From Siphonodentalium dalli (Eukaryota > Mollusca > Scaphopoda > Gadilida > Siphonodentaliidae), in NCBI GenBank assembly GCA_032622095.1, contig CP136068.1, positions 59,170,025 through 59,234,024 on the forward strand: a stretch of 64,000 nt of DNA. The letters run 5' to 3'. Within the stretch, counting starts at the first letter, position 1. Each line of letters opens with the position of its first letter. Of the stretch, positions 12,114 to 45,759 are shown piece by piece. The notes beneath the pieces were generated by a model. That model had not been told where the DNA came from, did not search any database, and worked only from the letters and a program-made list of their open reading frames with translations. The translations under genes and the position numbers were made by a program.

Positions 12114-13051
12114 TAGCTCACCTGAGACGAAGTCTCCGGTGGAGCTATAGTCATCACTCCTCGTCCGTCCATCTGTACGTCTGTCCGTCCATCAAGAATC
12201 ATCTTCTTCTACAGTACCCTAAGGCCAAATGGGTTCATATTTGGTGTGGATGTTCCCTGGTTGACTCAGACTCAGATTTGTTAAAATAAGGTCACTGAGA
12301 CAAATAGTTGCGAAGCTTGGGCCATAACTCTTTCCCACCATAGTAATTCTTAAAACAACTTCTATTCAAGAACCATCAGGCCTATTTAGCTTATATTTGG
12401 TATGGAAGGTCCTTGGGTGACTGGGGGTCAGATTTGTTCAAATGGGGTCACTGGGTCAAATAGGGGCAGAATCAGGGACATAACTCTATTCTCCCTAGTA
12501 ATTATTAGAACGACTTCTTCTCCAGAATAATTTGGCTGATTTAGCTAATATTTTGTATGGTGGGTCCTTGTGTGACTGGGGTTCAGATTTGTTCAAATGG
12601 GGTCAGTGTGTCAAATAGGGGCCGTGTCAGGAACATAACTTAAAAAAAAAAAATTAAAAAAAATATATTTTAAAATTTAAATCCTTGCTCATATTTAAAA
12701 AAAAAAAAAAAAAATTCAAAATGAACAATACAAAAATATTTTTTTCATTTTAACCCCTGATTTTTTGTATTTTTTTAGACATAAAATACCCCATTCCACC
12801 CCTTCCCCTCCACACCCCTGTCCCAACTAACACCCCCCCCCAATCTGTACCGCCCCTGCACCCAGCCACCCACTGCAGTCATGAAAAAAAATTATTTAGA
12901 AAAACTGATACCATTGTAACATCCATAGAGTATGGTATTAGCCCCAGACAGAAAGAGTTAATAACACAGTCATCAATTCAGATATTATCTAGCTGGCTGA
13001 CAGGTAGGTGTAAACATTCAAGCCCTGTGTGTATCAAAACAAAATGCTGTA

Positions 13052-13460
13052 TGTTTGACATTTGCAGAATGAGGTCCCCATAGGGTGAATTTAGTGATGT
13101 TACTCTGCACAGTAGGCTAGCATCACCAAATACACTCTCCAGGGACCTCATTCTGCTTAGGCCTCATCTTCAGGGAAGTATACAGGGTCTTAAATTGACA
13201 TTTCTACTTACTTTTTCCATTCTGTTCAGTTTCTTTATCCCCTAATTTGCTGAAGATAAAATTGATAATTGAAGTGCCCAATGGGTGCACATCACCAATT
13301 AACTGGACAACTTCAATCTGTTCCTATGTCTCCCATAGCAGTTGAGGCCTAAGCATAATGAGGTCCCCAGATGGTGAATTTGGTGATGCTAGCCCACCTT
13401 GCAGGATTGCAGCACTAAATTCACCCTTTAGGGACCTCATTCCTGCAAAAGTCAGACACT
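13052..13460. repeat. Paired fold-back module in family A, copy 1
   Basis: Two palindromes, each about 95 bp, bracket a spacer of about 200 bp. Each palindrome has arms running from GCAGAATGAGGTCCCC through GGTGAATTT, folded on the reverse complement. The outer arms are also complementary, so the whole module can form one long stem or two short ones. The same module occurs at 29449-29848 and 38428-38835. Confidence 0.7.
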
Positions 13461-14729
13461 ATATTCAGGCTTGGCTGTTCCACTATTATATTCTTAACCA
13501 CCACCTATCCAGTTGTACTCATTATACCCTGATTTGCAAAGAAAACTGGGGGGGGGTATATTGGATTGAATTTGTCTGTCAGTATGTCCTCCCATCCATC
13601 CCTCTGTTGGGATGTCTCCATCCGTCCATCAATTTTGTTCTTCTCCACATACATATTAAAGACCGAATGGGTTTATATATTTTGACTCACATTCAGATTT
13701 GTTCAAATGAGTTCATCAGGTCATATAGGTGAGAAGCCAGGGCCATAACTCTTTCCCTCCATAGTAATTCTTCAAAAACCATCAGGCCTATTTAGCTTTT
13801 GGTATGGAGGGTCCTTTGGTGAGTGGGGTTCAGATTTGTACACGTGAGGTCATTTTTAGGAAACTTTGAGGAAAATCAGTTTTCTTCAACTCTTAAAATC
13901 TACCGTTTGAAATTTCTAGATGAATGGATCTCATAGATGGGCATTCACATTTGTTCAAATAGGGGCAGAGATAAGAGATTTAACTCTCAAACACCCACTC
14001 TACCTGTATGTATGCTGTTTGATACTGGTATAATAATATATAGATTCCTATTGATTTCTAAGCTGCCTGGGTGGGGGCAATGAGGCCGTAGATTTGATTT
14101 TTCAAAAAAACTCGTAACAGTCCATATTTTACTACTTCGGGTTAAACTGTTCGACCGAAATAGCCACAAATTTTAACATGCTGCCACCACAAGGACCATC
14201 AGGTCTATTTTGTTGATATTTAGTATGAAGGGTTCTTTGGTGTCTGGTATTCAAATTTATTCAGATGTGGTCACCAGGTTAAATAGGGTGGGACAATGGA
14301 CATAACTAGTTGTTTCTATAGCCATTCTTAAATTGTCTTCTCAAGAGAGGTTGGACTATTTAACTTACATATAGTATGGAGGATCCTTTAGTGACTGATA
14401 TTCAGATTTGTTAACATCAGGTCAACCTGTTAAGAAATGACGGGGCTATGGGGAGTTAACACTTTTGTGTTTAAAAAATCATTGAAATACCAAATTCATT
14501 AAAACATCTATCTTTGAACTACCTAACTGATTAATCTGACATACATGTATGGTGTTTTGGGTCCATGGATAAATGGGCTTCAAACATGTCTAGATGGTTT
14601 TATAAAAAGGTGCTTGTGAGATTGGAAATTTCAAAAAATTGAGAAAGTTTGAGATGTCGGTTGTGAAATTCCAACCCAAGACTTGGGAGTCTGGAGCCCG
14701 GTCGGGAGGGGACTTGTTGAGCTGGAGTA

Positions 14730-14750
14730 GGGGGGGGGGGGGGGGGGGGG
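14730..14750 (+). repeat. Homopolymer of 21 G
   Basis: An uninterrupted run of 21 G lies immediately before a long hairpin inside family A. Such a run can form G-quadruplexes and its length is unreliable in sequencing. Confidence 0.9.
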
Positions 14751-14753
14751 TGA

Positions 14754-14820
14754 TCAGTAGTGTACAGTGGGTAATTCCAAGGTGGATATTCACCTTGAAA
14801 TTACCCACTGTACACTACTG
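14754..14820. repeat. Near-perfect hairpin
   Basis: CAGTAGTGTACAGTGGGTAA and its complement form a stem of about 30 bp with one mismatch around a short GATATT loop. The equivalent site in family A copy 2 (about 30340-30400) has decayed and lost the right arm. Confidence 0.8.
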
Positions 14821-15049
14821 AAGCCTCTCTAGCCACATATCGTGTTTAGATCTCCTTCTTTTAAAGTGATTATGAAAAGTTCTGACTATTGTGGTCTCCA
14901 GAGTCCCAGTCTCATCAGTCTTTGCAGTCTGGTGAGCGACCCCACAGTCTTTGACTGTCTTGTTCATATCCATTATTTACATAGCTTACTCATTTTATAT
15001 GTGAAATTATATAATTATATCAGATTATATACAATAATATAATTCTAGT

Positions 15050-15491
15050 CTAATGTCCAGACAAACGACCCATTGCATCAAGAAACTCCATTTTGTCAAT
15101 TTCTCCTCCTCTTTGAACTCGCTTATAGTGGCCGATGCTGTTCTCGATGGCTCTATATTTTCTCTTTCTTGGATCAACTTTTCCACCACATGCCAATTGA
15201 ATATATGTTGTACACAGTCCTAGAATCTGACTTGACAATCTGCTTCATTTTCGACATTATGAGTTCTGCGCTGAGTTTGTCGGGATCTGCTTCGTGATTA
15301 TGCGGCTTTTCTACACTTGTCACTATGTCATCCTTGGTGTTGACTGTACCTGGACACCATCTAACGCAACATGTCCAGTGGATACTGTCACTCTTTCTAG
15401 TTTTAATACGATATTTGTGACAATCAAACAGCAGATTCCTCCCTCCTTTTCTGTTCTCGATAAATGAAACATTAACCTGAACATTAGCCAT
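15050..15491 (-). pseudogene. FLYWCH zinc-finger fragment, possibly of a MULE transposase
   Basis: The frame at 15491-15174 encodes 105 residues starting MANVQVNVSFIENRKGG. It contains the FLYWCH pattern: LLFDCHKYRI, then WTCCVRWC, then HNHEAD, giving the Cys/His spacing of this DNA-binding zinc finger. FLYWCH domains occur in animal nuclear proteins and in Mutator-like transposases. The frame ends at 15174, but a 62-codon frame shifted relative to it (15238-15050) is lysine/arginine-rich (around DPRKRKYRAIENS) and may be its continuation, so the gene looks frameshifted and truncated. Methionine 15491 is a plausible start because the domain follows directly. Two MULE-like copies in the window make a transposon origin plausible, not proven. 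Confidence 0.6.
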
Positions 15492-15788
15492 TCTTATGAA
15501 AGATTATGAGAATATCACTGAAGTTGAAGTAAATTGCCTTTGCATGCATTTATATAGGTCGATTTGAGTTCAGATTGTTCACTCAAGGTACAAACATGCT
15601 TATATCGTTCACTCACGGAACTAACATACACTAACTACGTACCGGTGATAACTAACTTCTAGGTTGGTCTCGTTCGGGAAATGACACTTGAGACAATTTT
15701 TATTTTCAACCAATTGAGGCGAAATGGTGAAGTTGGGGAGCAACGCATCACCAAAAAATTACATCTTTGTAAACAAGTACAAGTTGAA

Positions 15789-16087
15789 GGGTCTCGGTGG
15801 CTCAGTCGGTTAGGTACAACTCAAGGCCGTCTCGCCCTCCAGCGCTGGCGATGAGGGTTTAAATGTACATGTTTCCATGATCTACTTTGTAACTTAAAAT
15901 CTATATCTGGTGGAGTTTCCAGTTACATGCCAATGGCCAGTGGTTTGCCGCTCATGGTCGACGAGTTTATCAGCCATTGAAATCACTGTCAGATTAGCCG
16001 TAAGTGTGCAGATTGCCTCCACCACTAACGTTTGCAATGTTGTGATATAGCCTTAGTTGCTGAAAGTGGTATTAAACCCAAATCAAT
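15789..16087 (+). mobile_element. tRNA-derived SINE with perfect 15-bp TSD
   Basis: The head GGTCTCGGTGGCTCAGTCGG contains a good pol III A box (TGGCTCAGTCGG). The B box is degenerate, around GAGGGTTTAAATG. The 3' end reads GGTATTAAACCCAAATCAAT, a tail seen in molluscan SINEs. CAAGTACAAGTTGAA is repeated exactly at 15774-15788 and 16088-16102, the target duplication expected of LINE-driven retroposition. The intact duplication points to a recent insertion. Confidence 0.85.
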
Positions 16088-16165
16088 CAAGTACAAGTTG
16101 AATGTGTCTAGCTTGAATTGACTGAAGCATTTTAATATGTGGTGGGATTACTGTAATGATCCATG

Positions 16166-16727: not shown

Positions 16728-16732
16728 CCATG

Positions 16733-17899: not shown

Positions 17900-18237
17900 G
17901 CATTTTTGGATCAACTTGACAAAGTCAAGTTTGAGCTATTGCCATGGGTTGGCATCCGTCATCTGTGAGTCCATCCATGATTCATCTACAATTTCCTGTA
18001 GCACAGTCTACAAGTCGCATATCTCATCCAATCCTTTTGGAACTTCATATAGATCTTTGAGGTGGCCTCTAAATGGGAGCCATTGATCTTTTCAGAAAGT
18101 TGTTGAAAAACATGGCCACCAGCAGCCATCTTTGATTTCAAATTTGAATATATCGGCACACCCTGCAGCCCACATTTTTTGGAGGACTGTTTTAAAAACT
18201 TACAGGCATGTTTAGGATCACCTCTAGATGGGAGCTA
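17900..18237 (+). mobile_element. Family D repeat, copy 1 (5' part)
   Basis: It starts with a hairpin, CAACTTGAC with GTCAAGTTTGAGC, then GCTATTGCCATGG, a degenerate TCCATCC tract and a core unit ending in AACATGGCCACCAGCAGCCA. The same order is seen at 20592-21010. It has the hairpin plus TCC-tract layout of families A-C, but its 3' terminus was not found. Confidence 0.5.
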
Positions 18238-18345
18238 TATATGAGGGTGACGACCCCCCTCCCCCTGGCATCCAGCATCCGGCTTAAAATGGACACCGGC
18301 ATCCGGAATACGCCATAACAGAGAGGCGGCATCCGGAATACTATT
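18238..18345. repeat. GGCATCCGG-motif repeat, copy 1
   Basis: This begins ATGAGGGTGACGACCCCCC and carries repeated GGCATCCGG/GAATACGCC words. An inverted relative lies at 22040-22165, also attached to family D sequence, with the same GAGGGTGACGACCCCCC border. Origin unknown. Confidence 0.5.
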
Positions 18346-19504: not shown

Positions 19505-21792
19505 ATTCCAACAAGAACGAGGTCACTGGGTCAAATAGTTGCGAAGCCAGGGCCATAACTCTTTCCCTCCATAGTAATTCTTTTAAGCATCTTCTCAAAT
19601 ACCATCTGGCCAAATGGGTTCATATTTGGTTTGAATGATCCTTGGGTGACTGGGGTTCAGATTTGTTCAAATGAGGTCACTGGGTCAAATGTGGGCGGGG
19701 CCAGGAACACAACTCTTAAAAAAAAAAAAATAATTTTTTTACTTTAATTGAGATTAATTTCTTGCTCAATCAGGCTCAATTTAAAAAAAATAACACCATT
19801 ATAACATCCACCAGGGTGACAACAAAATTTGGTTTAAATCAGTCTAAAATCGAGAACATGCTTAAACCATATAGAAGTCACATTGATTATAAAGTAATAA
19901 ATGAAAAGGCAGTGTTAACAAAATCTGTTTGGAATGACAGCATTGATTAATAGCCTAAATTTCTCTGCCTGTAAGAGAGTTTGTATATAAATTACCCTGC
20001 TTATGATAACAACTCCACTCCCAAGGCCAAGTGTGAATGGTGAATCTGACAGTTAGGCCAGTAAAACTAAATACCTGTTTTCTCAGGCGATTACATATCG
20101 GAAACTGGATGAGAAAGATGGAGGCATTTTCTTAGCTTACCTGAGATGAAGAATTGAGACATATTTTGTGTGGATGGTCCCTAGGTGGCTGGGATTCAGT
20201 TCTGTTCAAATGGGGGTCACATGGTCAAAAAAGTGGCATAGCTAGGAACCTAACTCTTTCCATCCATAGCAATTCTTAAAACATCTTCTCAAGAATCTAG
20301 GGACCTAACTCTTTCCATCCATAGTAATTCTTAAAACATCTCAAGAATCATCGGGACTATTTACCTTATAATTGGTATGGAAGGTTTTTGGGTGACGGGG
20401 ATACAGATGTGTTAACATGAGGTCACCTGGTCAAATAAGGGCGGAGCCAGGGACGTAACTTGGCCATCCATTGTAATTCTTAAAATGTCTTCCTATCAAG
20501 AACCATAAGACCTATTCAGCTTATATTTGGTATGGGTGACTAGGATTCAGAATTGGTCAGAGCCAGTGACATAATTCTTTCCCTCATCAGTTATTAGCTC
20601 AACTTACTTTGTAAGTTTGAGCTATTGCCATGGATTGGCGTCCGTCGTCCTTGTGTCCATGTGTCCGTCAACAATTTCCTTCCCCGCGGGCTACAGGTCA
20701 TACCTTTGGTCTGACCTTTATGAAATTTGTCATGAATGTTGACATTAACATGTAGATGGGAACGAGTCATTATGGGATCATTCGGGAAAAAAACATGGCC
20801 GCCAGCAGCCATCTTGGATTTTACTCTTTGCATGACTAAATCCTTTGACACGCGCTACCGGTCGTATCTTTGGTCAGATCTTCATGAAATTTGTTACGGA
20901 TGTTAACAATGACATGTAGATGGGAATTAATCATTTTTGGGGTCATTCGGCAAAAAAACATGGCTGCCAGCAGCCATCTTAGATTTTACTCTTTGCATAA
21001 CTAGGCCTTTCAACTTTCCACATTTCTAATAACTCAATTGACTTTAACACATGAAATTATTCCCTTTCCAAGTTGAGTTACAGTGTCATTGACACTTTCA
21101 TTTTTAAAACATCTTCTCAAGAACCGTTTGGCATATTTGGTATACATTTGGTATAGAGAGTCATTGGGTGACTGGGTTCAGATTTGTTGAAATGGGTTCA
21201 CCAGGTCAAATAGGGGTGCGACCATTGACATAACTCTTCCCCCCAAAGTAATTCTTAAAATGGCGCTCCTCAAGAGCCATCAGTCATATTTAGCCTATAT
21301 GTAGTAACCAGTATGGAGGATCATTGTGTTACTTGGGACTGGGTTACATATTTGTTAAAATGGGTTCGACCAATCAAGAAATGGCATTTGGTGTAAATGG
21401 CCTATGGAGAGTTGGAATAAAAATTCGTTTGAATGGGGTCCACCATTAAAACAGGGGAGCATGTCAGGTTGTAACTTTGTCACAGTTAGGAAAGCTTGAA
21501 GTGTCAGTTGTATTATTCCAACATGTGCAAAGGAATTTTACGAACTTGGGAGTGTGTTTGCTTCAGTTGAGAGGGAGCAGACTATGGACTATGTGGGGTT
21601 GGGGGATCTGGACCATATTTCAAGGTGGACACCCACTGCTCAACGGAGACCCTCTAGGCTATGTCCCTCTTTATGGCTACTTGTTTTTAATTTAAGTGAA
21701 TATGACAAGTACTAACTCTTATGGTCTTCCGAGTCCCAGTCTTCCTAGTCTTTACAGTTTGGTGAACGTCTCCACAGTCATTGACTGTCTTG
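19505..21792 (+). mobile_element. Family A repeat, composite copy with nested D
   Basis: It opens inside an A core unit at 19505 (AGGTCACTGGGTCAAATAG), so the true 5' end is lost here. A degenerate A 5' end, TTAGCTTACCTGAGATGAAG, occurs at 20134, and more core units follow. A family D segment sits at 20592-21010. The 3' end carries a diverged GGTGAACG, the hairpin ACAGTC-ATT-GACTGT and the terminus CTTG (21789-21792) before TT. Confidence 0.55.
20592..21010 (+). mobile_element. Family D repeat, copy 2
   Basis: The hairpin AGCTCAACTTAC/AAGTTTGAGCT is followed by GGCGTCCGTCGTCC and two tandem units with TTTGGTCTGACCTT/TTTGGTCAGATCTT and ATGGCYGCCAGCAGCCATCTT, period roughly 180 bp. It lies inside family A sequence. 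Confidence 0.55.
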
Positions 21793-22165: not shown

Positions 22166-22400
22166 CTTGAATGATTTTCTGTGAAAAACATGGCCATTGG
22201 CAGCCATCTTGGATTTTATTCTTTGCATGACTAAATCCTTTGGCATACCCTACAGGCCACATCCTTCATACTTTCAAAATATGTTAAAAAACATGGCCTC
22301 CTCCAACAGCCATCTTGGATCTTGAATTTTAATCCATCAGCACATCCTGTTGCCCGAATTTATTGGGGTATTGTTTTGAATTTAGGCCAAAAAAAGAGAA
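22166..22400 (+). mobile_element. Family D core fragment
   Basis: It carries ATGGCCATTGGCAGCCATCTT and a second diverged unit (CAACAGCCATCTTGGAT). It continues the D core interrupted by the GGCATCCGG repeat. The related sequence at 31330-31470 shares CACATCCTRTTGCCCGAATT. Confidence 0.5.
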
Positions 22401-23913: not shown

Positions 23914-24567
23914 GTAAGTATTATCCAGGAATGTTTTATGAAGTGATAAAACTATAAGATAGTGAAAGGCAAAGGGATTTCAATGATCGTGAGTCAATGT
24001 TCACACAATGCAATGGATCGTTGATGTTCTGCAGCTGTCATTTCTAAGAAGAAAACAGGCCATAAGATCGATTAAAGAGATTAGAAAATCCAGAAATATT
24101 AGGTTATTATTAGATGGGAAAAAAAACAGATGAGAAAAAACAAAAACAGGCATGTAAAATTCAACTGATATTTAATATTGATAATTTCAGACTGGCTGAT
24201 CATGCTATTACAGAAAACACAATATCGGAACTAGTACTATTTTGAACACTTCCTCAAATCATTGATAAAAAAGTAAATGTTCCTCCATTGATAGTCACTG
24301 TCTATAATTTGTATGCGTCCAAGTTGCATGCAAAATTTGTCAAAATGACAATGCTACCTGTATATTCACAAATAATCACCAACGCAAATTTTTTATATCA
24401 ATTTAACACTGAGAAATATGATGAATGAATATTTAAAATGACTGCTTCAACTTTGGAGCATTTTGTATCATTCTCTTGAATAACTACAGTAATAAATTAA
24501 TTCCATGTTCATTAACTGGTCTATACGCTGTTGTGTGACAAACCCGCTTTCGAGCAGGCAACAAATC
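23914..24567. other. Gene-free region
   Basis: No repeat or coding signature recognised. Confidence 0.45.
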
Positions 24568-24860
24568 ACGAGCAGCCGCAGTGTAACCTCTTGTTTAAAT
24601 TGTACTTCATGTTACTATTGTTAATTGCATATCAAAAGAAGTTTCAACTGATTTTAATTTTAAATTAAATTTCAGAGTTCCATTGATGATTACAAGTATG
24701 AAAAGATGGCACCACTAAGGCAGCCTTCGATATATGACTGAAGAGAGCATGATAAATTTTGAATACACCGCTCATAGCAAGGGAATGCAGACAGTGAATG
24801 TAAACACCCCAAAATAAGTAAGTTCCCCCAGCATATTACACTGTATCTCAAGAATCATGG
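24568..24860 (+). repeat. Local duplication, copy 1
   Basis: This matches 25138-25190 joined to 25689-25970: CGAGCAGCCG, TTGTTTAAATTGTACTTCAT, TTAATTGCATATCAA, TTCAACTGATTTTAATTT, TTTCAGAGTTCC, then AAAAGATGGCACC and CACCCCAAAATAAGTAAGTT. The partner carries a family C element at the point corresponding to about 24616-24625. An exon-like block at 24676-24796 in this copy has an in-frame stop (TATGACTGA) and looks decayed. Confidence 0.65.
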
Positions 24861-25688: not shown

Positions 25689-25970
25689 TTAATTGCATAT
25701 CAAGATCAGGTTCAACTGATTTTAATTTAAAATTTTAATTTATGCTCTTTCAGAGTTCCGGTGATGACTACAAGTGCGAAAAGATGGCACCCATGGAAAC
25801 GCCACCACTAAGGCAGGCTTCAATTTATGATGGAAGAGAACAAGAATTTTTTTGAAGACATGGTCATAGCAAGGGAATGCAAAGAGTGGTGAGTGCAACT
25901 TGGTAAGAGGTCAAATTGGTTATTAACACCCCAAAATAAGTAAGTTCCCCTAACACTGTATGAAGTATCC
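25689..25970 (+). repeat. Local duplication, copy 2 (3' part)
   Basis: This continues the copy interrupted by the family C element. Relative to copy 1 it has a 15-bp in-frame insertion (CATGGAAACGCCACC) in the exon-like block. Confidence 0.65.
25754..25888 (+). CDS. Candidate exon of an unrecognised gene (one frameshift)
   Basis: TATGCTCTTTCAG is a good acceptor and TG|GTGAGT a good donor, giving 135 bp. The frame from AGT TCC encodes about 45 residues including YKCEKMAPMETPPLRQASIY and, after one extra T in a run of seven, EDMVIARECKEW. The diverged copy at 24676 differs from it by a 15-bp in-frame indel and several synonymous changes in this frame, which suggests past coding selection. The extra T breaks the frame, so this is either a pseudo-exon or a homopolymer error. 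No family is recognised. Confidence 0.35.
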
Positions 25971-26636: not shown

Positions 26637-27133
26637 TATGTTTACCCATACCATGTATGGTAAACATAGTGTCGTTGTCCGGATTGACCACTCGTCGTTC
26701 GTCCGTCCGTCCGTCCGTCTGTCCGTCCGTCTGTCCGTCCGTCTGTCCGTCCGTAGACACTTTACGTGTAATGCGATAACTCAAACATTTTTTACCTGAT
26801 CAAAACCAAATTTTGTATATGGGGTTTTCAGCCCAAAATACAGATCGAGTTCGAATATGGGTTTGATCCAACTTTTTTGTACAGAGTTATGGCCCTTTTT
26901 CGACTTAGAATTCACGCATTCTGCCATAACTCAAACATTTTTTATCTGATCGGAACCAAATTTGGTATGTGAGTTTCTCGGCCCAAAATACAGATCGAGT
27001 TCGAATATGGGTTTGATCCGACTTTTTTTTACAGAGTTATGGCCCTTTTTCGACTTAGAATTCATGAATTCTGCCATAACTCAAACATTTTTTATCTGAT
27101 CGGAACCAAATTTGGTATAACTCAAACATTTTT
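26637..27133 (+). mobile_element. Family B Helentron-like repeat, 5' partial copy
   Basis: The 5' end TATGTTTACCCATACCATG folds on TATGGTAAACATA. (TCCG/TCTG)n follows (26696-26757), then two core units with GATAACTCAAAC, GGAACCAAATTTGGTATG and GATCGAGTTCGAATATGGGT. It is cut off where a second family B 5' end begins. Confidence 0.65.
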
Positions 27134-27201
27134 TATGTTTACCCATACCATAGTATGGTAAACATAGTGTCGTTGCCCGGATTGACCACTCGTCGTTCGT
27201 C

Positions 27202-27236
<35 letters not shown>

Positions 27237-28229
27237 CTCTCCGTAGACACTTTACGAGTAATGCGATAACTCAAACATTTTCTATCCGATCGAAACCAAA
27301 TTTTGTATATGGGTTTCTCAGCCCAAAATACGGATCGAGTTCGAATTTGGCCCTTTTTTGACTTAGAATTCACGCATTCTGCCATAACTCGAACATGGGT
27401 TTGATCCGATTAATTTTAAAGGAGTTATGACCCTTTTTCGAAAAAAAATTGAAATATTGAATCGATTTTTTTTTAAATTTATTTTTAACTTTTATAATAA
27501 TAATAAAAAAAATGTCATTGACATTGTCATTTGTTTTCATTTAGATATTGATGATTATGATAAAAAGATTTCCAATGTGTCCCTTTAATTTTTTTAAATA
27601 AGTTTAAAAAAATTGAAAAACTAACACCATTATAACTCTGCCAAGGGTACCCCGAATCACTACACCAAATTTGATTAAATCGGTCCAAAATCTTGTGTTA
27701 TGTACTGGTAAATCTGTTTGGAGCAACATTAAATCCAATTCACCAATTGCCTTTGGACTTATGCCAATGTGCAAATAATCTGATACATAAGGCTATGGCA
27801 TCTAATTTAAAATAAAGATTCAACAATAAACATCACATGCAGTAGACATGGACATCTGTGCTGCTATATAATTGATATTAATGGGTCAGTGGTGAGGTTG
27901 CTTATCTGTATACTAGGACACATTATTATTGTAAACTTAAATTGGACTCTCTTAACCCAAGTATTCCATGTCCAGGTCACACCTACACATTTAACCCATG
28001 GGCTTGCTGGCTGTGGCGGTTTAGCATTACAGATTCTGTACCAGTGCATTCTCTTATATAAATGCCAGTGACCCATAAATTCCAATAATTTGTGTTATGT
28101 ACATTTGTCTATAATAGTACATAACAGTATACTCTATAATTGAACACCAAAACTCTCATTTATCCGATCATATTAAATTTTTATCGCCAAGGGATGGGTT
28201 AACATCTGCCGATCGTGATCGGCCTCTCG
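27134..28229 (+). mobile_element. Family B Helentron-like repeat, full-length copy
   Basis: The order is: the 5' motif TATGTTTACCCATACC in a hairpin; a (GTCT)n tract; a core unit; A/T tracts; a conserved 3' region beginning AACACCATTATAACTCTGCC; then the 3' inverted motif GGGATGGGTTAACATC, matching the 5' motif at 13 of 15 positions; a hairpin GCCGAT-CGTG-ATCGGC; and the terminus CTCTCG before a T run. There is no coding capacity. This is the clearest HINE-like copy in the window. Short open frames on both strands at 27864-28085 are incidental. Confidence 0.7.
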
Positions 28230-28417: not shown

Positions 28418-30537
28418 TAGCTCACCTGAGACGAAGTCTCCGGTGGAGCTATAGTCATCACTCCTCGTCCGTCGTCCGTCCATCCGTCCATCCGTCCATC
28501 CGTCCGTCAACAATTCTTTGAACATCTTCTTCTAAAGTTCCATTGGACCGAATTGGTTCATATTTGGTGTGGATGTTCCCTAGGTGACTCTCATTCAGAT
28601 TTGTTCAAATGAGGTCACTGGGTCAAATAGTTGCGAAAGCAGGGCCACAACTCTATTCCTTCATAGTAATTCTTATAACGACTTCTTTTCCAGATCCATA
28701 AGGCCTAATGGGTTCATATTTGGTGTGGATGTTCCCTAGGTGACTCACATCCAGATTTGTTCAAATGAGGTCACCAGGTTGATTAGTTGAGAAACCAGGG
28801 CCATAACTCTTTCCCTCCATAGTAATTCTTTTAAACATCTTCTTCTCGAATACCATCAGGCCAAATGGGTTCATATTTGGTATGAAGGATCATTGGTTGA
28901 CTGGGGTTCAGATTTGTTCAAATGAGGTCACTGGGTCAAATGTGGGTGGGGCCAGGGACATAACTCAGAAAAAAAAAATTCAGATTAAACTCTTTAACCA
29001 AAAAAGAAAAGAATAGAAAAGAAATGATATATTAAAAAATAAAAGAATATTTAAAAAAACTGTGGAATTGTTTTTTTTTATTAGAATATTTTAAAAAAAA
29101 GGAAAAAAAAGAGTGTATTTAACTCCATGGTCAATTTAATATATATATATATTGTTTAACATTTTTTGTTAATTGAAAAACTAATGCCATTACATTTCTG
29201 TAGGTTGTGGCCCCTGGCCCTTCATTCAAGTGCACTGCTTCTGCCACCCTGGCCTGGTCTCAAAAATAAAATTTACTCAAATTCTTGACAGAATCATTAA
29301 TAAGAAGCATTTACTTTGGCTGTAACTGTATATATGCTGGGTATGCCGACACAATCATGTCAATCTTGATATGTTTATAAACATTCCTGCAGATTTGCTA
29401 GATGTCATTAATTCCCAATCTCTCATGTATTGTTCATATCAGGACTAATGTCATTTGCAGAATGAGGTCCCCAGAGGGTGAATTTAGTGATGCTATCCCA
29501 CACAGCGGCCTAGCATCACCAAATTCACCCTCTGGAGACCTTAGGCCTCATCTTCTGGGAAGTATCTATAGTATCAAATTAACATTGTTGTTAGTTACAT
29601 TTCCCTTCTAGGAAGTTTCTATATCCCCTAATTTGCAGAAGATAAATTCATAATTGAGGTGCCCAATGGGTGAACATCGCCAACTTCAACTGGGGAACTT
29701 CAATCTTATCCTAGGTCTGCCATAGCAGTTGGGGGCCCTAGCAGAATGAGGTCCCCAGAGGGTGAATTTAGTGATGCTAGCCCGCTGTGCGGGATAGCAT
29801 CACTAAATTCACCCTCTGGGGACCTCATTCTGCAAATGACAGACACACTTTCACACTATTTCAAGGCTTGATTGTATAATACATTGTGTTGCTTGAGGCC
29901 AGGCATGCACAATGTAGGAACATACACGCTTTTTGTGATGCTATCCCACACAGCGGGCTAGCATAACCAAATTCACCTTCTGGAGACCTCATTCTGCTTA
30001 GGCCTCATCTTCTGGGAAGTATCTACAGTATCAAATTTACATTGTTGTTAGTTAAATTTCCCTTCTAGGAAGTTTCTATATCCCCTAACTTGCAGAAGAT
30101 AAAATTCATAAATGAGGTGCCCAATGGGTGAATATCACCAACTTCAACTGGGGAACTTAAATCTTATCCTTATCAGATTTGTGAAAATGGGATCACAAAG
30201 TCAAATAAGGGCAGAGCCAGAGACTTAACTATTTCACTGCATAGTAATTCTTAAAATATGTTTTGCAAGAACTATTTGGCTTATATAGAATGGAATGTTC
30301 TTCCTTGACTGCAATTCAGATTTGTTTTTAAATGGGGGGTGATCAGTAGTGTACAGTTGGCAATTTCAACGTGGATTTTCACCAATCTACATACTTAGTC
30401 TCTCTAGCCACATATCCTGTTTAAATCTACTTCTTTTAAAGTGATTATGAAAAGTGCTGACTGTTTTGGTCTCCAGAGTCCCAGTCTTATCAGTCTTTGC
30501 AGTCTGGTGAGCGACCCCACAGTCATTGACTGTCTTG
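28418..30537 (+). mobile_element. Family A Helentron-like repeat, copy 2
   Basis: The 5' end TAGCTCACCTGAGACGAAGT forms a hairpin, followed by (CCGTCCAT)n and core units with AGATTTGTTCAAATGAGGTC and CATAACTCTTTCCCTCCAT. A/T tracts (28970-29170), the paired fold-back module and partly duplicated 3' sequence follow. The 3' end is GGTGAGC, GACCCC, the hairpin ACAGTC-ATT-GACTGT and CTTG (30534-30537) before TTTT. No coding capacity. Confidence 0.65.
29449..29848. repeat. Paired fold-back module in family A, copy 2
   Basis: The right palindrome (29742-29835) is nearly perfect: arms of about 43 nt from GCAGAATGAGGTCCCCAGAG around a GCCCGCTGTGCGGGA core. A third half-module follows at 29935-29990. 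Confidence 0.75.
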
Positions 30538-31329: not shown

Positions 31330-31440
31330 TTTTTTACAAAATATGTTAAAAAACATAGCCTCCAGCAGCCATCTTGAATTTTAATCCATCGGCACATCCT
31401 ATTGCCCGAATTTATTGGGCTATTGTTATGAAAATTTACA
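31330..31440 (+). mobile_element. Family D core fragment
   Basis: It carries ATAGCCTCCAGCAGCCATCTT and CACATCCTATTGCCCGAATT, as in the fragment at 22290-22360. Confidence 0.45.
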
Positions 31441-32050
31441 AACATGTTCAGGATGACCTCTAGATGGGAGCTCTCAAATTTTAATGAATACATATAAACA
31501 CATTTTGCCATATAAGGTGATGTCAAGGTCGTCAAAATGGCGATGGTGACCAAAAAAACCAATGTAACATGGACCACATTCAATGATCATGACGATGTTT
31601 TATCACAATTTTCAGTTGTATAATGCAATGCAAAGAAAAGACAAGATTGCAGATGGAGAAGGGTTGACTGAAGGGTGTTACGATGCTGTGTACTCAAGAT
31701 GACGACGAATAAAAATAAAAACGAGTGGATGAATAATGGTATATTGTTTGTATTATAACTAATTTCATTGAAGATTTCATCATGTTCATTACTGTTGAAC
31801 ACTAAACTGCTAATTATGATAGCACAGAATATAACTAAAACATCAAACGAAATTCACCCACAATCTTCAATTTCAAAATTATTTTAGTCATAGCATGTAA
31901 CCTCTTATGTACCCAGGGACTCACTTGGTTTAGCTGCAAGTATACTTGTAAGCTACATGGTTCGATTCCATTGGGTTCCAACTGACGAGGTTTTATGCAT
32001 ATTATAGAAATAATTTGCTAGATGTGTGTTATATAATTGGATTTTGTGTC
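31441..32050 (+). repeat. Long dispersed repeat, copy 2 (pair with 22965-23660)
   Basis: Colinear with copy 1 but lacking its (TA)n tract. Open frames on either strand (31281-31583, 31587-31802) are shadows of repeat sequence. Confidence 0.6.
31916..31979 (+). repeat. tRNA-like module in a repeat, copy 2
   Basis: Same fold as at 23521, with B box GGTTCGATTCC and one T-stem mismatch. Confidence 0.5.
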
Positions 32051-36074: not shown

Positions 36075-36497
36075 TAGCTCACCTGAGACAAAGTCTCTGG
36101 TGGAGCTATAGTCATCACTCCTCGTCTGTCCATCCCTCCGTCTGTCCGTCCGTCAATAATCGTCTTCTTCTCCAGAATTATTATACCGAATTGGTTCATA
36201 TTTGATGTGGATGTTCCCTAGGTGACTCACATTCAGATTTGTTCAAATGAGGTCACCAGGTCAATTGGTTGCAAAACAAGGGCCATAACCATATTCCTCT
36301 ATGGTAATTCTTATAACAACTTCTTGTCTAGACCATTGGGTCGTTTTAGCTTAAATTTGGTATGGAGGGTCCTTGAATGACTGTGGTTCAGATTTGTTCA
36401 AATGGGGTCAAATAGGGGTGGCGCCAGAGACATAACTCCGAAGAAAACAAAATCAGATTTAACTCCTTGATTAATTTAACATAAATTTATTTTTATT
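36075..36497 (+). mobile_element. Family A repeat, 5' fragment
   Basis: It has the 5' hairpin (TAGCTCACCTGAGACAAAGT), a CCGTCTGTCCGTCC tract and two core units, and is cut off at the start of the adjoining family B copy. Confidence 0.6.
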
Positions 36498-36500
36498 TTT

Positions 36501-37675
36501 TATGTTTACCCATACCATAGTATGGTAAACATAGTGTCGATGTCCGGATTGACCACTCATCATTAGTCCTTCCGTCTGTCTGTCCATAGACACTTTACGC
36601 ATGGTGCGATAACTCAAATATTTTCTATCTGATCGGAACCAAATTTTGTATATCAATTTCTCAGCACAAAAGACAGATCGAGTTCGATTATGGGTTTGAG
36701 CCGACTATTTTAACTGAGTTATGGCCCTTTTTCGAAAACATGTTCACTCTTAAAAAAAAAAAATTGATTGAATTCCTTGCTCAATTTAACAAAAAATAAA
36801 ATATAAATAAATTTTAAAAAAATAAATAAATTTTTTTTTAAATAATTTAAAAAACAGTTTTTTTTTTAAATTAGCAAAATTTGAAAAAACTAACACCATT
36901 ATAACTCTGCCAGTACCCCGAGTCACCACTCCAAATTTCGTTTAAATCGGTCCAAAATCTTGTGTTATGTTCTGGTAAATTTGTGTGGAGCGACATTAAA
37001 CCCAATTCACCAATTGAATCCCATGCCTTTGGACTACTTAGCTATTGCTAGGGCTATATTATTTTCTGATGGCTCTTATGCCAATGTGCAGATAAAGAAA
37101 GATATGGTATCTAATTTTTTTTTAAGTTTCAACAATAAACATCACATGATATTAACAGTAGACTAGAACATCTGTGCTGCATTGCACAGCTGAGTATATC
37201 ACTCTACAGATGGTCTGAGGTCATTATAAATGTCATTGGTTTAATATAGGTGCCAGCCTTCAACATAAACACTGCCTGTGATTTGTTGACAGCTCTGTTA
37301 TATAATTGATATTAATGGGTCAGCAGTGAGGTGTTTTATCTTGATGGCTGTTGTTGGTAGAATTGTATACATTATCATTGTAAACTTAAATTGGACTCTC
37401 TTAACCCAAGTATTCCATGTCCAGGTCACCTTTTCAAATTTAACCCAAGGCTGTTGTGGTGCAGCATTACAGATCCTGTACCAGTGCATTCTCTTATATA
37501 AATGCGAGTGACCCATAAATTCCAATAATTTGTGCTTTGTACATTTGTCTATAATAGTACATGTAACAGTATACTCTATAATTCAACATCAAAACTCTCA
37601 GTTATGATTCCGATCATAGTAATTTACTCTCATCAAGGGATGGGTTAACATCTGCCGATCGTGATCGCCGTCTCG
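36501..37675 (+). mobile_element. Family B Helentron-like repeat, copy 3
   Basis: It runs from TATGTTTACCCATACC (hairpin) through a short TCYG tract, one core unit, A/T tracts and the conserved 3' region, to GGGATGGGTTAACATC, a hairpin with a mutated right arm (GATCGCC) and GTCTCG. A TTAA element begins five bases later. Confidence 0.68.
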
Positions 37676-37679
37676 TTTT

Positions 37680-38079
37680 TTAAAGGCCCACTTAATTTTC
37701 GAACCCCAAATTATATTATATAAAATATATGCCATATTATATATATTATATTATCAACTTATCTGGTGTAATAAACTGTGGATATGTTGAGTTGCCAACG
37801 CGTTTTGTCATCAAGAATTAAAATATCATATTTTCAATGCAGGGGGAATAACTCTATATATTAAAGATAGAGTTCTTCCCCTTCCATTGGAAAACTTTGA
37901 ATTCTGTTGCATTATGGGTGACAGAGGGGGGAAGTCTTCTATTTATCTGTGGGCATCTTCAAATAGTGGTGAATTATAGCATTTTAATCATATTTTATGG
38001 CATAGATTGTTATTAAAACCGTATATCAAGTCACTATAAAAATAATAATTGGCGACTTGAAAATTAAGTGGGCCTTTAA
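37680..38079. mobile_element. TTAA element with AGGCCCACTTAATTTTC ends
   Basis: TTAA at 37680-37683 and 38076-38079 flanks 392 bp with perfect 17-bp inverted ends. An internal palindrome around AACTCTATATATTAAAGATAGAGTT lies at 37848-37875 (two shorter words pair: AACTCTAT and ATAGAGTT). The TTAAAGG start suggests the Kolobok/T2 type; piggyBac is the alternative. Confidence 0.75.
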
Positions 38080-38082
38080 ATA

Positions 38083-38869
38083 TGTTAAAAAATTTGAAAA
38101 ACTATCACCATTGTAACATCCGCAGAGTTATGAAAATCTTTAATGAAATCATTGAAACTTTCCCTTTCCATCATCCCCCCCACATGACCCAGACCACCAC
38201 CCTGCCCCAAACCAACAGCACCTCCACCCCATCTCATCTCCTAACTCACCTCTCCCACCAGCAGATTCAGTCAATTGTATTAGCTACAGACAGAGAGAGT
38301 TAATAACACAGTCATCAATTGAGATGTTATCAGGCTGACAGGTATAAACAACTGCTTAGCTAGCGCTCATGCCAGTGTGTGTCATTAATATCAAATCAAA
38401 ACAAATTATTGTGTTCCCAAACCTGAATTTAGTGTGTCTGACATTTGCAGAATGAGGTCCCCAGAGGGTGAATTTAGTTATGCTACCCTGCACAGCAGGC
38501 TAGCATATCCAAATATACTACCCATGGAACTCATTCTGCTTATGCCTCGTCTGGGAAGTATATAGGGTCTTAAATTTACATTTTTCTTACTTTTTTCCGT
38601 CTGTTCAGTTTCTATATCCCCTAATTTGCAGAAGATAAAATGCATAATTGAGGTGCCCAATGCGTGCACATCACCAACTTTAACTGGAGAACTTCAATCT
38701 GATGCTATATCTCCCATAGCAGTTGAGGCTTACACAGAATGAGGTCCCCAGAGGGTGAATTTGGTGATGCTAGCCCGCCGATTGCGTCACTAAATTCACC
38801 CTTTGGGGACCTCATTCTGCAAATGTCAGACACTATATTCAGGCTTGGCTGTTCGAATATTATTTTCTA
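38083..38869 (+). mobile_element. Family A 3' region with paired fold-back module
   Basis: It begins with AAACTATCACCATTGTAACATC, matching family A copy 1 at about 12900, then the AGTTAATAACACAGTCATCAATT block, then the fold-back module (38428-38835) and TTCAGGCTTGGCTGTTC. The satellite array begins directly after it. The A 3' terminus is not seen on this side. Confidence 0.6.
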
Positions 38870-41800
38870 AACAGTGGGCTCTACAATATATGTATATGGG
38901 AGTCATAACACTTCTAAAGATGCATTCTTGAGTTGATCATGGCTCCAAAAGTTGAAATATAGCCAATTGAAATTTTGCCCATAGGACTGTTAAACATACG
39001 GGATTTCTTATACCGGTTTGGTGCCTTATATCGACAACTCTGCGACAGTGGGCCATACAATATATGTACTTGGGAGTCATAACACTTAGAAAGAAGCATT
39101 CTTGGGTTGTTCCTGGCTCCAAAAGTCGAAATATAGCCTATTGAAATTGTGCCCATATGCTAGAAGCGGGTCCTCCGGACGACTCTCTTCTAAACATACG
39201 GGGATTTCTTATACCCGCGCGCGCGATCTGTATAGCGTTATATCGGTAAATATATATGCGACAAAGGGCCCTACAGTATAGATGTAAACGGGACCAGAAC
39301 ACCTAGAAAGATGCATTCTTGGGTTGATCCTGGCTCCAAAAGTCGAAATATAGCCTATTGAAATTGTGCCCATATGCTATAGAAGCGGGTCCTCCGGAGG
39401 ACCCGCTGTTAAACACACGGGAATTTCGTATACCCGATCTGTAGCGTTATATCGGCAAATATGCGACAAAGGGCCCTACAGTAGATGTATACGGGACCAG
39501 AACACTTAGACAGATGTATACTTAGGTTGACAATGGCTCCAAAAGTCGAAATGTAGCCTATTGAAATTGTGCCCATATGCTAGAAGCGGGTCCTCCGGAC
39601 GACTCTCTTCTAAACATACGGGGATTTCTTATACCCGCGCGCGCGATCTGTATAGCGTTATATCGGTAAATATATATGCGACAAAGGGCCCTACAGTATA
39701 GATGTAAACGGGACCAGAACACCTAGAAAGATGCATTCTTGGGTTGATCCTGGCTCCAAAAGTCGAAATATAGCCTATTGAAATTGTGCCCATATGCTAT
39801 AGAAGCGGGTCCTCCGGAGGACCCGCTGTTAAACACACGGGAATTTCGTATACCCGATCTGTAGCGTTATATCGGCAAATATGCGACAAAGGGCCCTACA
39901 GTAGATGTATACGGGACCAGAACACTTAGACAGATGTATACTTAGGTTGACAATGGCTCCAAAAGTCGAAATGTAGCCTATTGAAATTGTGCCCATATGC
40001 TAGAAGCGGGTCCTCCGGAGGACCCGCTGTTAAACACACGGGGATTTCTTATACCGGTTTGGTGCCTTATATCGACAACTCTGCGACAGTGGGCCATACA
40101 ATATATGTACATGAGAGTCATAACACTAACAACGATGCATTCTTGGGTTGATCCTGGCTCGAAAAGTCGAAATGTAGCCTTTTGATATTGTGCCCATATG
40201 CTAGAAGCGGGTCCTCCGGAGGACCAGCTTTTAAACACACGGGGATTTGTTATACCCGATCTGTAGCGTTATATCGGCAAATATGCGACAGTGCATTGGC
40301 CATACAATATATGTACATGAGAGTAATAACACTTAGAAAGATGCATTCTTGGGTTGATCCTGGCTCCAAAAGTCGAAATGTAGCCTATTGAAATTGTGCC
40401 CATATGCTAGAAGCGGGTCCTCCGGAGGACCAGCTGTTAAACACACGGGGATTTCTTATACCGGTTTGGTGCGTTATATCGACAACTCTGCGACAGTGGG
40501 CCATACAATATATGTACATGAGAGTCATAACACTTAGAACGATGCATTCTTGGGTTGATCCTGGCTCCAAAAGTCGAAATGTAGCCTATTGAAATTGTGC
40601 CCATATGCTAGAAGCGGGTTCTCCGGAGGACCAGCTTTTAAACACACGGGGATTTGTTATACCCGATATGTAGCGTTATATCGGTAACTATGCGACAGTG
40701 GGCCATACAATATATGTACATGAGAGTCATAACACTTAGAAAGATGCATTCTTGGGTTGATCCTGGCTCCAAAAGTCGAAATATAGCCTATTGAAATTGT
40801 GCCCATATGCTAGAAGCGGGTCCTCCGGAGGACCAGCTTTTAAACACGCGGGGATTTGTTATACCCGATCTGTAGCGTTATATCGGCAAATATGCGACAG
40901 TGGGCCATACAATATATGTACATGAGAGTCATAACACTTAGAAAGAAGCATTCTTGGGTTGTTCCTGGCTCCAAAAGTCGAAATATAGCCTATTGAAATT
41001 GTGCCCATATGCTAGAAGCGGGTCCTCCGGACGACTCTCTTCTAAACATACGGGGTTTCTTATACCCGCGCGCGCGATCTGTATAGCGTTATATCGGTAA
41101 ATATATATGCGACAAAGGGCCCTACAGTATAGATGTAAACGGGACCAGAACACCTAGAAAGATGCATTCTTGGGTTGATCCTGGCTCCAAAAGTCGAAAT
41201 ATAGCCTATTGAAATTGTGCCCATATGCTAGAAGCGGGTCCTCCGGAGGACCAGCTTTTAAACACACGGGGATTTGTTATACCCGATCTGTAGCGTTATA
41301 TCGGCAAATATGCGACAGTCGGCCATACAATATATGTACATGAGAGTCATAACACCTAGAACGATGCATTCTTGGGTTGATCCTGGCTCCAAAAGTCGAA
41401 ATGTAGCCTATTGAAATTGTGCCCATATGCTAGAAGCGGGTCCTCCGGAGGACCAGCTTTTAAACACACGGGGATTTGTTATACCCGATCTGTAGCGTTA
41501 TATCGGCAAATATGCGACAGTCGGCCATACAATATATGTACATGAGAGTCATAACACTTAGAACGATGCATTCTTGGGTTGATCCTGGCTCCAAAAGTCG
41601 AAATGTAGCCTATTGAAATTGTGCCCATATGCTAGAAGCGGGTCCTCCGGAGGACCAGCTTTTAAACACACGGGGATTTGTTATACCCGATTGTAGCGTT
41701 ATATCGGCAAATATGCGACAGTCGGCCATACAATATATGTACATGAGAGTCATAACACTTAGAAAGATGCATTCTTGGGTTGATCCTGGCTCCAAAGGTC

Positions 41801-43730
41801 GAAATATAGCCTATTGAAATTGTGCCCATATGCTAGAAGCGGGTCCTCCGGAGGACCCGTTGTTAAACACACGGGGATTTCTTATACCGGTTTGGTGCCT
41901 TATATCGACAACTCTGCGACAGTGGGCCATACAATATATGTACATGAGAGTCATGACACTTAGAAAGATGCATTCTTGGGTTGATCCTGGCTCCAAAAGT
42001 CGAAATGTAGCCTATTGAAATTGTGCCCATATGCTAGAAGCGGGTCCTCCGGAGGACCAGCTTTTAAACACACGGGGATTTGTTATACCCGATCTGTAGC
42101 GTTATATCGGCAAATATGCGACAGTCGGCCATACAATATATGTACATGAGAGTCATAACACTTAGAAAGATGCATTCTTGGGTTGATCCTGGCTCCAAAA
42201 GTCGAAATATAGCCTATTGAAATTGTGCCCATATGCTAGAAGCGGGTCCTCCGGAGGACCCGCTGTTAAACACACGGGGATTTCTTATACCGGTTTGGTG
42301 CCTTATATCGACAACTATGCGACAGTGGGCCATACAATATATGTACATGAGAGTCATAACACTTAGAAAGATGCATTCTTGGGTTGATCTTGGCTCCAAA
42401 AGTCGAAATGTAGCCTATTGAAATTGTGCCCATATGCTAGAAGCGGGTCCTCCGGAGGACCAGCTTTTAAACACACGGGGATTTGTTATACCCGATCTGT
42501 AGCGTTATATCGGCAAATATGCGACAGTCGGCCATACAATATATGTACATGAGAGTCATAACACTTAGAAAGATGCATTCTTGGGTTGATCCTGGCTCGA
42601 AAAGTCGAAATATAGCCTATTGAATTTGTGCCCATATGCTAGAAGCGGGTCCTCCGGAGGACCCGCTTTTAAACACACGGGGATTTGTTATACCCGATCT
42701 GTAGCGTTATATCGGCAAATATGCGACAGTGGGCCATACAATATATGTACATGAGAGTCATAACACTTAAAAAGATGCATTCTTGGGTTGATCCTGGCTC
42801 CAAACGTCGAAATGTAGCCTATTGAAATTGTGCCCATATGCTAGAAGCGGGTCCTCCGGAGGACCCGCTGTTAAACACACGGGGATTTCTTATACCGGTT
42901 TGGTGCCTTATATCGACAACTCTGCGACAGTGGGCCATACAATATATGTACATGAGAGTCATAACACTTAGAAAGATGCATTCTTGGGTTGATCCTGGCT
43001 CCAAAAGTCGAAATGTAGCCTATTGAAATTGTGCCCATATGCTAGAAGCGGGTCCTCCGGAGGACCAGCTTTTAAACACACGGGGATTTGTTATACCCGA
43101 TCTGTAGCGTTATATCGGCAAATATGCGACAGTCGGCCATACAATATATGTACATGAGAGTCATAACACTTAGAAAGATGCATTCTTGGGTTGATCCTGG
43201 CTCCAAAAGTCGAAATGTAGCCTATTGAAATTGTGCCCATATGCTAGAAGCGGGTCCTCCGGAGGACCCGCTGTTAAACACACGGGGATTTCTTATACCG
43301 GTTTGGTGCCTTATATCGACAACTCTGCGACAGTGGGCCATACAATATATGTACATGGGAGTCATAACACTTAGAAAGATACATTCTTGGGTTGATCCTG
43401 GCTCCAAAAGTCGAAATATAATCTATTGAAATGTTGCCCATATGCTAGAAGCGGGTCTTCCGGACGACCCCAACGGGACAAAGGGCCCTAAGGTAAATGT
43501 AAACTGGGACAACATAACTTAGATAGAAGCATATTTGAGTTGATCATGGATACACAAGTTGAGATATACCCAATTTAAATTGTTCGGATATGTAAACCAC
43601 AGGTGTCCTCTGGAGGACCCGCTAATAAATATATCGGAATTTCAGATACCCCTTATGTTGACTTATATCGACAGTGGGGCCTAAAATATATGTGTATGCC
43701 AGTTGTACCATATACACCCATCCAAACCTG
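38870..43730. repeat. Satellite array, ~201-bp monomer, about 24 units
   Basis: The landmark GATGCATTCTTGGGTTGATC recurs at about 38926, 39098, 39311 and then roughly every 201-202 bp (for example 41566, 41768, 41969, 42170, 42372) to 43379, with a diverged copy at 43529. Most monomers carry a palindrome centred on GGGTCCTCCGGAGGACCC. Variants differ after it: type A has TTATACCGGTTTGGTGCC, type B GTTATACCCGATCTGTAGCG, type C CGGACGACTCTCTTC plus CCGCGCGCGCGATCTG. The first and last units are the most diverged, and the first lacks the palindrome. Open frames of 61-62 codons on both strands are by-products of the 201-bp period. Confidence 0.92.
39133..40019. repeat. Exact 420-bp tandem duplication inside the satellite
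   Basis: By eye, 39133-39599 is identical to 39553-40019 (offset 420 bp, two monomers: one type C and one with CGGGAATTTCGTATACCC). The identity ends at a C/G difference at 39600 versus 40020. Confidence 0.85.
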
Positions 43731-43881
43731 TCAGCTTAGAAATCATTAATATTCTAGATATTATTATTATACAAGTACCAAACTCGAATTCAACAGCATA
43801 GATACAGGTAAGGTGGATGAGTGAGTCACGATGATCCATTCAACACCGAAATCTTGAGAGGCGAGGATTAGCAAATGATAA

Positions 43882-45759
43882 CGAGAGGCCGATCACGATC
43901 GGCAGATGTTAACCCATCCCTTGGCGATAAAAATTTACTATGATCGGAATCATAAATGAGAGTTTTGGTGTTGAATTATATGAGTATACTGTATGTACTA
44001 TTATAGACAAATGTACATAACACAAATATTGGAATGTATGGGTCACCGGCATTTATATAAGAGAATGCACTGCTACAAGATATGTAATGCTAAACCACCA
44101 CAGCCTTGGGTTAAATGTGAAAGGTGTGACCTGAACATGGAATACTTGGGTTAAGAGAGTCCAAGTCTACTGCTAATATCATGTGATGTTTATTGTTGAA
44201 TCTTTATTTTAAATTAGATACCATAGCCTTCTTTATCAGATTATGTGCACATTGGCATAAGAGACATCAGAAAATGATATAGCCTTATCAATAGCTAAGT
44301 AGTCCAAAGGCATGGCATAAAATTGGTGAATTGGATTTAATGTTACTCCAAACAGATTTACAGGTACATAACAAGATTTTGGACCGATTTAAACAAATTT
44401 GGTGTGGTGATTCGGGGTACCCTTGGCAGAGTTATAATGGTGTTAGTTTTTATCCGGACATCACAATATGTGTACCATACTATGGTGAATTGGATTTAAT
44501 GTTGCTCCAAACAGATTTACCAGTACATAACACAAGATTTTGGACCGATTTAAACAAATTTGGTGTGGTGATTCGGGGGTACCCATTGGCAGAGTTATAA
44601 TGGTGTTAGTTTTTCAAATTTTCAAACTTAAAAAAAAAATTATTTTTAATTATTTAAAAAAAGGGACACATTGGGAACCTTTTTAATCAACTTGTATCAT
44701 AATCATCAATATCTAAATGAAAACAAGTGGTCAATCCGGACATCACAATATGTGTACCATACTATGGTATAGGTACACATAAAAATCAAAATAAATTAAT
44801 CAATCAATAGGGGCAAAGAGTGTGTAAAAATAAACCAATATAAAATGAGACATGGTATCAGATGAAAGTATCAGGAATGTTGAGATTTAACTACAGAAAT
44901 CCATGCAAGTGAATGAGGAGAAACCTGGAGATAACAGAAGAATGATTAATTGAAATTTAAAATGAGAACATCCCTACAAATGAATAATAGAGTATTCCAA
45001 TTAAAACTTTAAAACTGAATGGGACAGTCCATTGAATCATGAATGGGTTCAGCTTCACCACTATCATAGAGCTATGTCGTATATACAGTGGCTAAAAATA
45101 ACTAATATTTAAATAAGACATCAGTTCTGCAGTCTCTCAGAACACTATCTATGCAGTTAAGCTTGCATTACTGGTAGTTAATTGTAATCTACCTGGGTTA
45201 TCAAAAACTCAAATCTGTTCAATTCTTAGTTGAAAAAGGGCCATAACTCTAGTATAACAAATCAGATCTAACCCATATTCGAACTCGATCTGTATTTTGA
45301 GTTGAGAAACTCACATACAAAATTTGGTTCCTATCAGTTGAAAAATTGTTGATTTAACGAAGCATTCATGAATTCTATGTCAAAGGGCCATAACTCCATA
45401 AAAAAATATCGGATCAAACCCATATTCGAACTCGATATGTATTTTGGACTGAGCAACTCACATACCAAATTTGGTTAGTCAGATAATATTTTTTTGAGTT
45501 ATGGCAGCATACATGAATTCTAAGTTGAAAAAGGGCCATAACTCCATAAAAAAAACTCGGATCAAACCCATATTCGAACTCGATCTGTATTTGGTGCTGA
45601 GAAATTGAAATAAAAAATTTTGTTCCGATCAGATAGAAAATATTTCAGTTATCGCACCATGCGTAAAGTGTCTACAGACAGACAGACAGATGGACGGACT
45701 AACGACGAGTGGTCAATCCGGACAACGACACTATGTTTACCATGGTATGGGTAAACATA
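43882..45759 (-). mobile_element. Family B Helentron-like repeat, inverted copy
   Basis: Read on the minus strand, it starts TATGTTTACCCATACC at 45759, with its hairpin and a TCYG tract (45676-45700). Three core units follow (45230-45660), then unrelated DNA and an internally duplicated 3' region (44330-44610). It ends GGGATGGGTTAACATC, hairpin GCCGATCGTGATCGGC, CTCTCG at 43882, then TT in that orientation. Open frames at 44331-44600 are repeat sequence. Confidence 0.65.

Follow-up and report, generated by a model that had tools for sequence, protein, structure and literature searches.

The window analysed here, a stretch of 64,000 nucleotides from Siphonodentalium dalli, has a G+C content of about 38% (read off its profile) and abundant interspersed and tandem repeats. 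It raises the question of what moves three of its repeat families, A, B and C, which were predicted to share one unusual architecture, to be Helentron-like (HINE) elements and to represent several unrelated bodies served by one kind of Rep/helicase source. The copies that we recognise are collected in Table 1. They include items absent from that original prediction, namely a fourth family, D, which is built on the same plan as A-C and has a relative near 17911, the longer C copy (6878-7740, outside the range then considered) and further A fragments. The limits of that range, 12114 and 45759, coincide with the heads of A1 and B4.

Table 1. Element copies and associated sites in the window
Feature	Position	Strand	Description
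C1	6878..7740	+	C copy, 863 bp, four 174-bp core units
A1	12115..14962	+	complete A copy, 2848 bp
C-type head tract inside A1	13550..13640	+	half palindrome and microsatellite
D2	17911..18241	+	D-related remnant: head motif and core-unit pieces
A4	19516..21792	+	A copy lacking a 5' end of its own; tail GTCTTG+TT
D1	20596..21100	+	fourth family, 505 bp, within a core unit of A4
Paralogous empty site	24540..24680	+	duplicated flank without C2
C2	25201..25688	+	degenerate C copy, 488 bp, two core units
B1a	26638..27134	+	B head, GTCC/GTCT tract, core units; without its own 3' end
B1b	27135..28229	+	B copy, 1095 bp, directly after TTTTTT of a B1a core unit
A2	28419..30537	+	complete A copy, 2119 bp
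A3	36076..38872	+	A copy split by two inserts, B3 and a second one with inverted repeats
B3	36502..37675	+	B copy, 1174 bp, in a T-rich tract of A3
B5	43882..44780	-	short B copy, variant head
B4	45221..45758	-	B head and three core units; without its own 3' end
A5	62880..63425	+	decayed A fragment with core units; 3' end 65-70% alike

In family A four heads can be recognised (12115, 20134, 28419 and 36076), along with three good tails (14962, 21792 and 30537), the head at 20134 being a degenerate second one contained in A4. Five heads (26638, 27135 and 36502 on the forward strand, 45758 and 44780 on the reverse) and three tails (28229 and 37675 forward, 43882 reverse) belong to family B. Family C consists of two copies, of which C2 is tied to C1 through its core units and not through its 3' end. 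The order of parts in A1 is a 5' palindrome, a GTCC tract, core units at 12216-12640, a foldback body, later core-unit tracts, a 3' hairpin and GTCTTG; A3 lacks a 3' end and leads into a satellite of 202-bp units. All three longer A bodies contain a foldback (13050-13460, 29445-29855 and 38428-38835), the inverted arms of which measure about 100 bp, and A2 has a partial second copy of it at 29930-30170. Right behind B3 in A3, at 37680-38080, lies an insert with inverted ends (GGCCCACTTAATTTTC), which is probably another DNA transposon. Weak further matches to D core units were obtained by profile at 22184-22323, 31347-31472, 52223-52442 and 53217-53354 (-).

The predicted hairpin start was borne out in seven of the eight copies tested, in which the first 40 nucleotides fold beyond dinucleotide shuffles, with 0-8 of 500 shuffles as stable (A1 1, A2 5, B1b 0, B3 0, B5 6, C1 8, D1 2); the exception is C2 (241 of 500). 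After the preceding TT, the heads begin with AGCT, ATGT, ATAC or ACTC. The TCCG/TCTG-rich tract was seen in the form of GTCY tracts. GTCYGTCY occurs 37 times in the window against 3.28 expected, and 36 of these 37 occurrences lie inside the elements on the element strand, the other being at 49401; a search of C2 and D1 for exact GTCYGTCY found none. Tandem core units, expected at about 130-180 bp, were found at 148-174 bp in A-D, with periods of 155-156 bp in A, 148-150 bp in B, 174 bp in C1 and 164 bp in D.

The 3' ends gave a more mixed result. Tails read GTCTTG in A1, A2 and A4, CTCTCG or GTCTCG in B and CTCTTG in C1 and C2, with TT next each time; these are the ends that had been claimed, with GTCTCG in addition, and D1 ends in TTTCA followed by TTTTT. 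An inverted copy of the 5' motif near the 3' end had been claimed for A and B. It is strong in B1 and B3 (1 of 1000 shuffles each) and modest in A1 and A2 (82 and 80 of 1000, the 3' stretch used extending a few bases beyond the element end), but it fails in A4 (966) and B5 (662); beyond these families it is fair in D (D1, 12) and weak or absent in C (C1, 195; C2, 340, an unrelated match). In a 4 x 4 control comparison of heads and tails, in which a single copy stood for each family, own-tail scores were 8, 11, 6 and 9 and off-diagonal scores 3-6, so that each of the four families has its row maximum at its own 3' end; the C column ties with the B head. The 3' motif stands some 23-25 bases from the element end. 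The short 3' hairpin, also claimed for A and B, can be drawn as a 6-bp stem in A1, A2, B1b and B5, and in D1 as well (85, 78, 23, 23 and 123 of 500 shuffles as stable, respectively), whereas that of B3 is damaged (472) and C1 (367) and C2 (395) have no good stem. The hairpin is thus visible and recurs between copies, yet single copies prove nothing, since none of the stems does better than the shuffles.

The published Helentron rule defines families by 11 bp of identical subterminal inverted repeats (subTIRs) and subfamilies by 80% identity over the last 60 bp (PMC4067079). By the latter measure A1, A2 and A4 (82-95% alike) and B1, B3 and B5 (81-95%) group as subfamilies, and A5 (65-70%) and the pair C1 and C2 (55%) fall outside. 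Between families the last 60 bp are 46-57% alike; the likeness of the two C tails is at this between-family level, which counts against a simple C family.

TT precedes 12 of 12 heads and succeeds 9 of 9 tails (TT makes up 0.098 of dinucleotides), a count that is partly by construction because the first base past the T run was taken as the element end, and the Ts may belong to the element. As predicted for insertion at TT without a longer target duplication, the flanks of all eight head-tail pairs repeat only Ts, over 2 to 6 bases. The search for empty sites that the original prediction proposed yielded one inside the window. C2 occupies one copy of a local duplication (24640-24830 and 25720-25900) that resembles a repeated exon with a splice site, and its joined flanks were compared with the copy that lacks C2. 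Among 600 joins the best was 25198|25686 (score 144.5), and joins at TT scored 140.5, 138.5 and 136.5. The best join lies within 3 bases of a TT join, so the insertion point is known to about 3 bases. For D1 the comparison is with uninterrupted A units: the joined flanks match all eight tried, with scores of 51.5-73 (joins scanned about 10 bases around the expected ends); in a plain global alignment with an A2 unit the gap was not cleanly opened. B3 interrupts A3, whose body continues beyond it, and the core unit of B1a is not resumed after the B1b tail. Two B composites have two heads and one tail each (26638-28229 on the forward strand and 45758-43882 on the reverse), the upstream head being without its own tail. 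Each (B1a-B1b, B4-B5) may have arisen by copying from the upstream head to the downstream tail or by simple nesting followed by loss; the data fit both.

The families look unrelated at their ends, yet they have some internal parts in common. For most pairs of core units the signal in direct alignment was too weak, and profiles were therefore used. A profile of six C units matched D units (E values 5e-5 and 0.05) and B units (best E 0.0046, then 0.8, 1.2, 4.1 and 7.5), where the best of ten shuffled windows gave 1.3; its matches in A, at 4.4 and 7.3, did not rise above the shuffle level. Of its ten matches outside C, nine fall within units of A, B or D and have the orientation of the element; one lies elsewhere. 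Conversely, the D profile recovered each of the six C units (E 2.4e-4 to 0.14, against 0.15 for the best shuffle), the B profile a C unit at 0.17 (against 4.3) and the A profile one at 0.41 (against 1.3). Pairwise z scores stand out for C-D (7.0, 5.2) and C1-B (6.8, 4.2) and not for C2-B (0.6, 0.1) or A-B (-0.7 to 0.4); they range from -0.2 to 3.4 for A-C (A1-C1 -0.2, A1-C2 1.0) and from -0.5 to 4.3 for A-D. A 19-base motif of the C unit, picked after the sequences had been read, occurs 13 times with at most 3 mismatches against 0.12 expected (C 6, A 6, D 1, B 0). A short body module starting near GAAAAACTAACACCATTATAAC is common to A and B, no more than one shuffle of 500 reaching its score in any of the 12 pairs, and for the C-type head tract in A1 (Table 1) no shuffle of 500 reaches the score against C1 or C2. 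From the profile, pairwise and motif results, the core units of C and D are clearly homologous and those of B likely related to those of C; A is linked to the others by small pieces only. The bodies are consequently less unrelated than had been supposed. The dissimilarity of A and B units in pairwise comparison agrees with the earlier description, and the C-D match by profile, the A-B module and the C-type head in A1 depart from it.

We conclude that A, B, C and D are very probably non-autonomous rolling-circle elements of the Helentron/Helitron2 group, that is, of HINE type. This is based on heads that are palindromic and follow T, core units some 150-175 bp long, the 3' end before T, the lack of duplication beyond the Ts, the one empty site and the nested insertions. 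The predicted architecture largely holds. Weak points are the single 3' hairpins, the short distance of the 3' motif from the end, the failure to see an autonomous partner, and family C, with its weak 3' inverted motif and lack of a good 3' stem. The comparison with HINEs made in the original prediction fits: every named part has a counterpart in the descriptions of oyster Cg_HINE (PMC7492417) and of mite and Drosophila HINEs (PMC4067079). By structure A-D are further members of this known kind, the published elements being compared with them by description.

The closest counterparts are the eleven Cg_HINE elements of Crassostrea gigas, described with a 5' subTIR and complementary inverted repeat (IR), a GTCY/GTCC-type microsatellite, central repeats of 138-181 bp, a 3' subTIR followed by a palindrome, insertion at T-rich or TT sites without duplication, and both unrelated and related modules; their partner could not be named (PMC7492417). 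They resemble A-D in these features, less plainly so in the 3' subTIR and palindrome, with the differences, judged by description, that D and C2 are without a clear microsatellite and C is without a clear 3' palindrome. HINEs are defined as Helentron derivatives (PMC4067079), and the HINE/DINE-1 elements of mite and Drosophila, as described there, also have subTIRs, a 3' palindrome, microsatellite or tandem repeats and a preference for TT without duplication. In mite HINEs the 3' motif lies 38-60 bp from the end, farther than in our copies, and autonomous Helentrons were identified for mite and Drosophila, unlike here (PMC4067079). The Pearl family of bivalves (CvA, CvE, MgE, DTC84), likened here by description, has subterminal inverted repeats, a tetranucleotide microsatellite and a tandem core. 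PMC8268682, PMC11136912, PMC5139131 and PMC5874043 deal with satellite units located inside elements of this sort and with a group of bivalve satellites that have two conserved motifs. The FoHeli elements, Helitron2 of Fusarium, are like A-D in their asymmetric inverted repeats, in the 5' hairpin (with a GAA loop in FoHeli1 and 2, likewise found in family A) and in a 3' copy that stands tens of bases short of the element end; they differ from A-D in being autonomous-sized and in their target sites (PMC5148889). The features of canonical Helitrons (Helitron1), with 5' TC, 3' CTRR and insertion at A/T, were not encountered; our tails are CTTG, CTCG and TTCA.

Judged by the element ends alone, Helentron and Helitron2 sources look alike, and the mover could be a Helitron2-type Rep/helicase without an endonuclease, which we regard as the less favoured possibility and rather unlikely. 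In Helitron2 the terminal inverted repeats are asymmetric, each end has a hairpin, and elements insert between TTTT and T or C (PMC5148889); A2, A3 and all five B heads are preceded by at least four Ts. A1, A4, C1, C2 and D1 are preceded only by TT, however, the T runs may be the elements' own, and oyster elements of like build are classed with Helentrons. We are similarly doubtful of the proposal that the families are truly independent, with ends that converged and common pieces that reflect chance or capture. It would account for the flat scores of A-B, A1-C1 and A1-C2, for the shuffle-level matches of the C profile in A and for the low likeness of 3' ends across families. It accords poorly with the reciprocal matching of the C and D profiles, with the A-B module and with the excess of the 19-base motif, subject to that motif having been picked after reading.

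That the elements are MITEs or other elements with terminal inverted repeats, the class first given to Pearl elements, seems very improbable to us: the inverted repeats are asymmetric and duplication beyond the Ts is lacking in all eight pairs, against which stand the subterminal inverted repeats themselves, the AT-rich targets and the description of CvA as MITE-like in the accessible part of PMC5874043. Tandem repeats make up much of each element, and one might take them for satellite or microsatellite tracts with fortuitous flanks; as heads and tails recur, insertions are nested and an empty counterpart of one site exists, we find this scarcely credible.

As far as ORFs of at least 110 amino acids show, A-D encode no transposition protein of their own, and no autonomous partner was seen within the window. 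None of the 14 window ORFs of this size gave a Pfam match to a Helitron Rep or PIF1 helicase; their matches are to reverse transcriptase, zf-RVT and Exo_endo_phos domains of LINE elements, with a few weak ones below the cut-off. An Exo_endo_phos_2 match at 55619-56554 is of the domain type named for Helentrons (PMC4067079, in the available portion), but it precedes reverse-transcriptase ORFs and is for that reason assigned to a LINE. Pattern scans for related DNA in viral, bacterial and archaeal contigs gave no matches, which says little in view of those sources. A search of literature text for four element motifs gave 34 papers that contain one of them; the titles of the 20 listed are unrelated.

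Other repeats adjoin or accompany the elements. The 202-bp satellite (38990-43470; 22 units with a 403-bp higher order) adjoins the cut end of A3. We considered it as part of family A and kept it apart because its matches to A units are inconsistent (1 of 200 shuffles against A2, 102 against A1 and 162 against A3). Two inverted 672-bp copies, 98% alike and 49 kb apart, lie at 9299-9970 and 59288-59959; an inverted repeat at 48192-48440 is perfect over 80 bp with a loop of 89 bp; and the segment 55082-58590 has 82-bp tandem repeats immediately upstream of a LINE with endonuclease and reverse-transcriptase ORFs.

If the published model applies to the HINE-type elements described here, a Rep/helicase supplied in trans by an autonomous relative would nick at the head, one strand would be displaced with copying stopping at the 3' hairpin, and the displaced strand would be joined into a TT target; core units were probably multiplied inside the element afterwards. 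Because core units, the body module and the C-type head are common to several families, the families seem either to go back to common ancestors from which they diverged, or to have exchanged modules, rather than to have wholly separate origins. A more specific scheme, to which we give little credence, is that the core units hold a functional cis element, the short motif near AATTTGGTATGGATGTTC, which is kept while the ends and the rest of the unit change, and that modules (heads, core units and body pieces) are swapped by read-through from a head to the tail of another family; read-through of this sort is suggested by the two B composites. If our reading is right, the window would provide a compact case of nested HINE-type families that includes one empty site and in which core units connect families dissimilar at their ends. 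It would open no new class, but would bear on whether one mover serves many families and on the origin and spread of satellite-like repeats inside rolling-circle elements.
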